Assembly (NCBI GenBank): GCA_947504185.1
Contig: CANNGJ010000013.1
Span: 1-64,000, forward strand
Source of the DNA: an uncultured Tenacibaculum sp.
GTDB taxonomy: Bacteria; Bacteroidota; Bacteroidia; Flavobacteriales; Flavobacteriaceae
Length of the DNA: 64,000 nt
Direction of reading: 5' to 3'
Every line of letters begins with the position of its first letter. Positions within the stretch are counted from its first letter, which is position 1. This document shows, one piece after another, positions 4,910 to 6,595 of the stretch. Under the pieces are notes generated by a model, which was given only the letters and a program-made list of their open reading frames with translations, was not told where the DNA came from and made no database searches. The position numbers and the translations under genes were made by a program.

Positions 4910-5362
4910 TTAATTCCCGTTCTCTTCAAGTCTAAGTTCTTTCCATTTAAAATTTCCTTTACTAACAATCGATTGAAAATCTTTATGAATTTGATTAATA
5001 TAATCATCACTAACTTTTTCTTCTTCAGAAGCTAATTTGGTTTTTAACTCAAGCTCTTTTAAACGATCTCGGGTTTCTCCGTAGATAACCCATAATTCTT
5101 TATGGCTATAAAACCCATCCCAAGCGGCAAATATTGCACTTGAAGCACTAAAAAATAAAGTTAAAACTTTAATAAGAGTTTTATAGTTAGGAAAATCATC
5201 ACCAATAGCTACCAGAAAAGTAATTAGTGCCGATGAAATAGCAATACAGATGTATATACGAAATGATTTTTTCTTGTTTTGTTTGGTACGGCAAGAGGTA
5301 AATTCAATCATTTTTGAAATTTCTTCTTGTAAAATTTCAAATCGAGAAGGGTTATTGTTCAT
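4910..5362 (-). CDS. Two-TM protein resembling SLATT/DUF4231 domain proteins
   Basis: Two hydrophobic helices followed by FAAWDGFYSHKELWVIYGETRDRLKELE, similar to the SLATT pattern. Confidence 0.5.
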   Translation of the reverse strand: MNNNPSRFEILQEEISKMIEFTSCRTKQNKKKSFRIYICIAISSALITFLVAIGDDFPNYKTLIKVLTLFFSASSAIFAAWDGFYSHKELWVIYGETRDRLKELELKTKLASEEEKVSDDYINQIHKDFQSIVSKGNFKWKELRLEENGN

Positions 5363-5434: not shown

Positions 5435-5974
5435 TTAATTACAAACTTTACAATCGTCTTTGTCTTGAACTTCACCAACGAGTTTTCCTTCCTCGTTTAA
5501 AACAAATCCACAGCAATCCATAAATCCTTTTGCAATTAGTTTACGAGCACGTTGAATTTGAGATTTAGTTGTTGGTAAACTCTGCTTTAATGTGTCAGCG
5601 ACTTCTTGTTGTTTTAATCCTTTAATATCTGATAAAAATAAAGGGTCTCTGTATTTTTTAGGGAGACTTTGTAGAATACCACGTAAACAGTCTCTTTCTG
5701 TATGTTTGTGTTCTTCTATTTTAGTTTCTGTCTCAAAATTAGCTAATTCAAATGTTTGGTTTGTATTTTTAAAATGATCCATTATAGAATTACGAGCAAT
5801 AGTAAAAATCCATGGTTTTAACTTCGTGATATCTTTTAGTGTATGAAGTTTTGTGTGGATTTTTATAAAAGTGTCTTGTAAAATATCGTCCGTAACAGTT
5901 TTATCTTTTACTTTACTTAAAATAAAAAATTGAATATCGGTAGCGTATTTTGTCCAAACTTGATTTGTAGTCAT
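5435..5974 (-). CDS. sigZ: RNA polymerase sigma factor, SigZ-like ECF family, with Cys-containing C-terminal tail
   Basis: Sigma-70 region 2 (DDILQDTFIKIHTKL, KPWIFTIARNSIMDHFKN), region 4 (LPKKYRDPLFLSDIKGLKQQEVADTL), tail DCCGF...DDCKVCN. Confidence 0.8.
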   Translation of the reverse strand: MTTNQVWTKYATDIQFFILSKVKDKTVTDDILQDTFIKIHTKLHTLKDITKLKPWIFTIARNSIMDHFKNTNQTFELANFETETKIEEHKHTERDCLRGILQSLPKKYRDPLFLSDIKGLKQQEVADTLKQSLPTTKSQIQRARKLIAKGFMDCCGFVLNEEGKLVGEVQDKDDCKVCN

Positions 5975-5989
5975 TTTAATACAGAATAA

Positions 5990-6031
5990 AACAGAAATTA
6001 TTCTTTTATAAATTTAAGGATAATTTCTGTT
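5990..6031. repeat. Perfect 12-bp inverted repeat AACAGAAATTAT-N18-ATAATTTCTGTT upstream of sigZ
   Basis: Arms 5990-6001 and 6020-6031 read directly. Confidence 0.7.
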
Positions 6032-6051: not shown

Positions 6052-6156
6052 TTAGCAATTGCAATTATTACAAGAACAATTTTCGCATGTGCAGTTAGCA
6101 CAACTTCCTGTTTTACATCCGTCACAATTACAAGTACATTGGTTTTTATATTTCAT
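6052..6156 (-). CDS. Tiny Cys-rich metallothionein-like peptide, MKYKNQCTCNCDGCKTGSCANCTCENCSCNNCNC (34 aa, 11 Cys)
   Basis: Manual translation with ATG at 6156 and TAA at 6052; CxC and CxxC repeats; below the ORF-track length cutoff. Confidence 0.75.
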   Translation of the reverse strand: MKYKNQCTCNCDGCKTGSCANCTCENCSCNNCNC

Positions 6157-6183
6157 CTTATTTAATCTTTAAGTTCATATAGT

Positions 6184-6211
6184 AGACTTTAAAAAGACTA
6201 AAAAGATGCAA
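6184..6211 (-). promoter_or_regulatory. Candidate ECF (SigZ) promoter TTGCATCTTTT-N12-AGTCT upstream of the Cys-rich ORF
   Basis: AAAAGATGCAA at 6201-6211 and AGACT at 6184-6188 on + strand; same elements and spacing upstream of DUF3703. Confidence 0.55.
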
Positions 6212-6553
6212 TTATTTTGAAAAATATTTTTGTAATTCTTCTCTAACAGGAATAGATTTAATAGGAGAGATGTTTGCACCTCCAGTATTTCCTTTGGGTA
6301 CCCAAATATTTGTAAAAAAAACAGAAGCTATAATTCGAGTAATTTGCCCAAAAACTTCTTTGATGTTTTTAGTTTTTATACCATGAATCAACATCCAATA
6401 GTGAGATGCTATATGTCTGTATAAATGCTTTTGCCCTAAAATATGAGCATTTTCTAAATGATAAAATGACATTTCGAAACGATGGTTTCTCAATGGCATT
6501 TTACCTAATTCTAATTGAATTTTAAATTCTTTTTTACGTTGTGATTTGGTCAT
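6212..6553 (-). CDS. DUF3703 family protein
   Basis: FYHLENAHILGQKHLYRHIASHYWML and WVPKGNTGGANISPIKSIPV are typical DUF3703 motifs. Confidence 0.8.
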   Translation of the reverse strand: MTKSQRKKEFKIQLELGKMPLRNHRFEMSFYHLENAHILGQKHLYRHIASHYWMLIHGIKTKNIKEVFGQITRIIASVFFTNIWVPKGNTGGANISPIKSIPVREELQKYFSK

Positions 6554-6567
6554 TTTTTTTACAAAAC

Positions 6568-6595
6568 AGACTAACTTTTATATGAAAAGATGCAA
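6568..6595 (-). promoter_or_regulatory. Candidate ECF (SigZ) promoter TTGCATCTTTT-N12-AGTCT upstream of DUF3703
   Basis: AAAAGATGCAA at 6585-6595 and AGACT at 6568-6572 on + strand. Confidence 0.55.

Follow-up and report, generated by a model that had tools for sequence, protein, structure and literature searches.

A candidate metallothionein family in a predicted SigZ-run metal-resistance regulon of Flavobacteriaceae

A 34-aa peptide with 11 cysteines, encoded in an uncultured Tenacibaculum sp., is likely a member of a new metallothionein family that operates within a regulon for resistance to divalent metals (probably Zn/Cd), under the control of a SigZ-like sigma factor (hereafter SigZ). 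The best reading of the sequence comparisons is that the peptide founds a family missing from all of the libraries searched. Somewhat less securely, we consider it probable that the two genes form an undescribed, self-contained circuit, in which an ECF sigma factor of the SigZ kind senses metal as a single protein, with no anti-sigma factor, and has its own metallothionein and a TGYRTC-N17-GTCT promoter code. Genes as short as that of the peptide are easily skipped by gene callers. By 2020, only two bacterial metallothioneins had a physiological role that had been worked out (PMC7387436). The new family comes with a regulator, a sharply defined promoter and a list of targets, which makes metal sensing by SigZ-type sigma factors directly testable in a large marine group. 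A search of the open-access literature found no paper describing the peptide-SigZ system. Positions below are those of the window, i.e., the whole 64,000-nucleotide stretch of DNA that was analyzed (Table 1).

Table 1. Features of the peptide-sigZ locus and its surroundings, with window positions.
Feature	Position	Strand	Basis or remark
SigZ-like ECF sigma factor (179 aa), 3' of peptide gene	5435..5974	-	NF007215 E=2.1e-49, TIGR02959 E=3.3e-45, both under curated cut-offs
Cys tail of sigma factor, residues 154-179 (CC...DCKVC), predicted metal-sensing element	5438..5515	-	Alignment
Hairpin in peptide gene/sigZ gap, 12-bp core stem AACAGAAATTAT then TTATT	5987..6029 (approximate)	-	Possible partial terminator or mRNA stabiliser
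11-Cys peptide gene (metallothionein candidate)	6052..6156	-	34 aa, ATG...TAA; first gene after SigZ-type promoter
SigZ-type promoter of peptide-sigZ operon, TGCATC-N17-GTCTA (TGCATCTTTTTAGTCTTTTTAAAGTCTA)	6183..6210	-	In 73/73 SigZ-linked regions, 0/9 orphans
DUF3703 protein (113 aa), predicted second SigZ-regulated unit	6212..6553	-	PF12487 E=1.6e-34; promoter
Second SigZ-type promoter, TGCATC-N17-GTCT, 5' of DUF3703	6567..6594	-	Like arrangement in seven relatives

An earlier, sequence-only reading of this DNA had placed a complete ORF of 34 aa and 11 Cys at 6052-6156. Its coordinates were exact from ATG to TAA, and the strand, which it had left unstated, proved to be the minus strand: the ORF (6156..6052) encodes MKYKNQCTCNCDGCKTGSCANCTCENCSCNNCNC (34 aa, 11 Cys, no His), and translation of the plus strand gives an unrelated peptide. 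The CxC and CxxC clusters that had been described were likewise found, as a strictly conserved spacing of CxCxCx2Cx4Cx2CxCx2CxCx2CxC. At the AT-rich base composition of the window, chance would produce exactly this arrangement of 11 Cys ~8e-13 times per 64 kb. The runner-up among 34-codon open stretches elsewhere in the six frames contains 7 Cys. A chance ORF was ruled out by the expected frequency of the spacing together with purifying selection on the gene.

We gathered 81 distinct homologues, mostly from Flavobacteriaceae. The peptide was found in 29 of 151 same-family genomes in a genome search, and a phylum-wide profile search matched 5 genomes out of 398, all of its own family. When named genomes were scanned for the pattern, 36 clean loci emerged, all in records labelled as Bacteroidota groups. 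These were from Tenacibaculum soleae (which has the most similar named peptide), T. piscium, Polaribacter, Winogradskyella, Gelidibacter, Olleya, Kordia, Bizionia, Lutibacter, Seonamhaeicola and others, plus one Saprospiraceae and one Cytophagales MAG. Many exact DNA pattern matches in distant phyla (Vibrio, Xanthomonas, Bacillus, and others) turned out to be simple-sequence repeats read in a poly-Cys frame and were rejected as artefacts.

None of the 11 Cys varies in an alignment of 32 diverse homologues (A1), and they are near-invariant across the 81, with rare exceptions (e.g., one core in which the first Cys is substituted). Core positions other than Cys are also conserved, namely Gly at 11, Thr at 17 and Asn at 27. 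Cys codons alternate between TGT and TGC across the 81 coding sequences, and nearest-neighbour pairs had 174 changes at the third position of these codons and 0 at the first two. Among scorable pairs that include the window copy, the closest had dN/dS values of 0.01-0.03; the median for all usable pairs was 0.18. The sequence-only reading had called the peptide metallothionein-like and had named conservation of the Cys pattern and dN/dS as the check; at orthologous loci the pattern proved to be strictly kept and the reading frame under purifying selection, which supports that view. Comparative sequence data of this kind give strong indirect evidence that the peptide is translated. One degenerate copy (L063; MKSKECICTCESCTNGQYQNCTCENYTFSGCNC) has 8 Cys only and is possibly decaying.

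That the peptide could not be placed in a named metallothionein family was also upheld, as no family or solved structure homologous to it was found in Pfam, NCBIfam or PDB. Scanning of the 32 alignment members against profile libraries gave no match to PF02069. In a PF02069 search, 0 of 101 family genomes scored above the cut-off and the peptide's own genome had no match; four control genomes, including Synechococcus elongatus, did match, one of the four above the cut-off. SmtA-type metallothioneins combine 9 Cys with His ligands around a zinc-finger-like fold. The window peptide has 11 Cys and no His and does not match the PF02069 profile, so that comparison with the SmtA/BmtA profiles agrees with the absence of a named family. 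It does have the class trait of metallothioneins, a very high Cys content in conserved CxC/CxxC arrays. Like SmtA, BmtA and PmtA (PF02069), the new peptides are small, Cys-rich and predicted to be cytosolic metal-thiolate proteins tied to metal stress, but they are shorter (about 30-37 aa), have 11 Cys, mostly have no His and have no zinc-finger-like segment. Regulation differs as well, as the new peptide is under a predicted SigZ promoter, whereas SmtA is controlled by the repressor SmtB (PMC7387436).

The metallothionein reading is strong because of three features that the sequence-only reading did not include: an adjacent SigZ-like sigma factor, a dedicated promoter and a metal-export regulon. 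The peptide gene comes first, with a gene for a SigZ-like ECF sigma factor next in nearly every case (linkage was scored where the downstream gene was in view, and a few named loci end before it), and the other neighbours differ between genera. A SigZ of at least 46% identity occurs in 23 of the 151 family genomes, and all 23 carry the peptide directly upstream, including one (G078) that was missed by the peptide search and whose peptide is visible in locus L024. Seven family genomes have a peptide match but no SigZ that reaches 46% identity (one of the seven has the promoter and a SigZ of 37% identity); SigZ is therefore not strictly required for the peptide. Copies without a recognized SigZ neighbour or promoter include L055, L058, L061, L065, L066, L079, L130 and L143, several of them in small genomes. 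A search of plasmids for the sigma factor returned distant SigZ relatives only, none of at least 60% identity, and no Cys peptide was near the two that were inspected. On the Arenibacter algicola plasmid pSMS7 (L291), a SigZ-like sigma factor lies by thioredoxin, permease and oxidoreductase genes without a Cys peptide.

The SigZ models are the best models for the sigma factor (168 bits against a cut-off of 212, and 154 against 168.65), and sigma70 regions 2 and 4 both pass Pfam. It appears to belong to the same sequence family as SigZ ECF factors (TIGR02959/NF007215), with matches covering nearly the whole protein, but it differs in scoring under both curated cut-offs and in being linked to a Cys peptide and a set of metal-export promoters. 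Sigma factors linked to the 11-Cys peptide have in common a tail with four Cys, CC-x(about 19)-CxxC. The linker that joins sigma2 to sigma4 contains Cys96, which does not vary in the alignment. In the AlphaFold model, which has modest confidence for the tail (pLDDT about 62-78), the last helix ends in the CC pair and leads into a short beta-hairpin, and Foldseek matches of the model were ordinary ECF sigma factors. On the other side of sigZ, 3' of it, the window encodes a lone SLATT_1-domain protein (4910-5362, minus strand; NF033634 E=1.6e-22) with no obvious partner gene in view.

A bipartite promoter, TGC(A/G)TC-N17-GTCT, was present in 73 of 73 non-redundant SigZ-linked regions examined, with a spacing of exactly 17 and mostly 24-30 nt 5' of the peptide ATG; shuffles gave an expectation of 0.005 loci per shuffle. 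It was absent from all nine peptide copies without a recognized SigZ neighbour, one of which (L125) is in a sequence that ends soon after the peptide, so that its SigZ neighbour is not in view. A strict form of the promoter was found in 16 of the 151 family genomes, all 16 with a SigZ at least 46% identical, and in 0 of 128 others (Fisher p=1.6e-16); a control pattern gave zero sites in the 151. Five nt after GTCT, 51 of the 73 peptide leaders (6157-6182, minus strand, in the window) contain a conserved ATGAAC-type block. Its frame is not conserved, and inspection of CDF and DUF3703 sites did not reveal it there. The block resembles either a mini start codon or a leader element of RNA or DNA.

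The promoter also marks further genes. In 60 genomes of the genus there were 56 strict sites, as compared to 1 for a reversed-pattern control. Based on inspection and SigZ adjacency, 38 of the sites belong to peptide-sigZ, 7 to DUF3703 and 6 to CDF exporters, and the remainder to 1 ZntA/CadA-type ATPase, 1 CusA/CzcA pump and 2 TonB-dependent receptors, with 1 site that is probably chance. Within the peptide's own genome, searched by pattern, sites additional to those in the window precede a CDF exporter (C5:114506) and a TonB-dependent receptor by a small His-rich protein (C32:22692). A further promoter-like match there (C16:2292) was set aside as chance, having a spacing of 18 and lying inside a coding region. 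The CDF target was seen again in another genus (L299), a CDF-like gene is found about 1 kb away from the orphan peptide L055, and DUF3703 genes elsewhere in the family are often, as judged by eye, by an efflux-adaptor-like protein and a Fur-type regulator. These independent links implicate divalent metal export in the function of the system. DUF3703 has the SigZ-type promoter in eight genomes, which gives this domain a likely role in metal resistance; open-access literature on SigZ or DUF3703 with metals in Bacteroidetes yielded nothing relevant. DUF3703 was rejected as a general, fixed partner of the peptide, since, among the loci collected, the two are neighbours mainly in the nearest relatives and other genes take its place elsewhere.

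Building on what was computed (ORF conservation, selection, sigZ linkage, promoter co-occurrence and promoter targets), we hypothesize that the peptide is a small cytosolic metallothionein that would be produced under an excess of divalent metal, most likely Zn2+ or Cd2+. The SigZ-like factor would sense the metal by its own Cys, i.e., Cys96 and the CC...CxxC tail, for which CorE and CorE2 offer a precedent, and would then direct RNA polymerase to TGCATC-N17-GTCT promoters. Predicted targets are its own peptide-sigZ operon (autoregulation), DUF3703, CDF exporters, CzcA/ZntA-type pumps and a TonB-dependent receptor. Metal would be bound and buffered by the 11 thiolates of the peptide and expelled by the pumps. 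A four-metal (M4Cys11) cluster is plausible because the peptide has 11 Cys in about 30 residues, as does the mammalian metallothionein alpha domain, given as Zn4Cys11 (PMC10243857), although the Cys spacing of the peptide differs, with no CC pairs, and no homology to any solved structure was detected.

CorE and CorE2 are metal-responsive ECF sigma factors (PMC8999054), and CorE has a 38-residue C-terminal extension with 6 Cys (PMC3107203). These factors (former ECF44, now ECF238) resemble the window sigma factor in having no known anti-sigma factor and in their Cys-containing C-terminal extension and linker Cys. The window protein differs in being SigZ-like by profile, in its tail of about 26 residues with 4 Cys and in its single linker Cys, as compared to the Cys-rich C-terminal domain and linker CxC of CorE-like proteins. 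By analogy, it would work like CorE without being a CorE member. Overall, the system appears to function as a metallothionein would under a CorE-like sensor, with both parts elsewhere in sequence space.

Zn/Cd is favoured over Cu because of the pump types, with an assignment that rests on exporter families whose substrates overlap (Zn, Cd, Co, and Ni). It is unlikely that the peptide is instead a Cu(I) thionein or a general thiol/redox buffer. CxC-rich short peptides suit Cu(I) too, MymT serves copper detoxification (PMC7387436), the pump families do not fully fix the metal, and the SigZ Cys residues could be redox-sensitive too; however, the CDF exporters, ZntA/CadA-type ATPase and CzcA-type pumps of the predicted regulon are divalent-metal systems, and the promoter targets examined included no gene specific to copper.

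Near-obligatory adjacency to sigZ, in a window with no anti-sigma gene next to sigZ, is what would be expected if the peptide mainly regulated SigZ, whether by acting as a small anti-sigma factor loaded with metal or by donating metal to the SigZ tail. We regard this as improbable, since the peptide persists in small genomes without a recognized SigZ neighbour or SigZ promoter and its composition, nearly all Cys and small polar residues, offers no obvious conserved interaction surface. Very improbable indeed is that the ORF is a sigZ leader peptide or attenuator that senses cysteine starvation and has no functional product. It is a short Cys-rich ORF 5' of a regulator, and 51 of 73 linked loci have a stem of 9 bp or longer after the peptide gene, as compared to 21% of shuffles, but these hairpins vary in sequence and size from locus to locus, non-Cys positions of the peptide are conserved too, and there are copies without SigZ. 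Under the metallothionein reading, the hairpin may favour peptide mRNA over sigma mRNA.

Paralogous circuits may exist. Distant SigZ homologues (37-41% identity) come after a different peptide with 14 Cys (e.g., MKNCQCTNCECTNCNCGNCLESKCPCTKCECKNCTCC), in relatives at loci L031 and L033-L037, where the promoters are TGTATC-N17-(G/A)TCT. The peptide's own genome has a second SigZ paralogue (C16:1071-1562; L002/L242) with a CC...CxxxC tail and a TGCGTC-N17-GTCT promoter. Distinct promoters at the 14-Cys loci and at the second paralogue are expected if each sigma factor regulates itself. The second paralogue adjoins a gene for arsenite methyltransferase (ArsM) and is perhaps part of an arsenic-responsive sister system.
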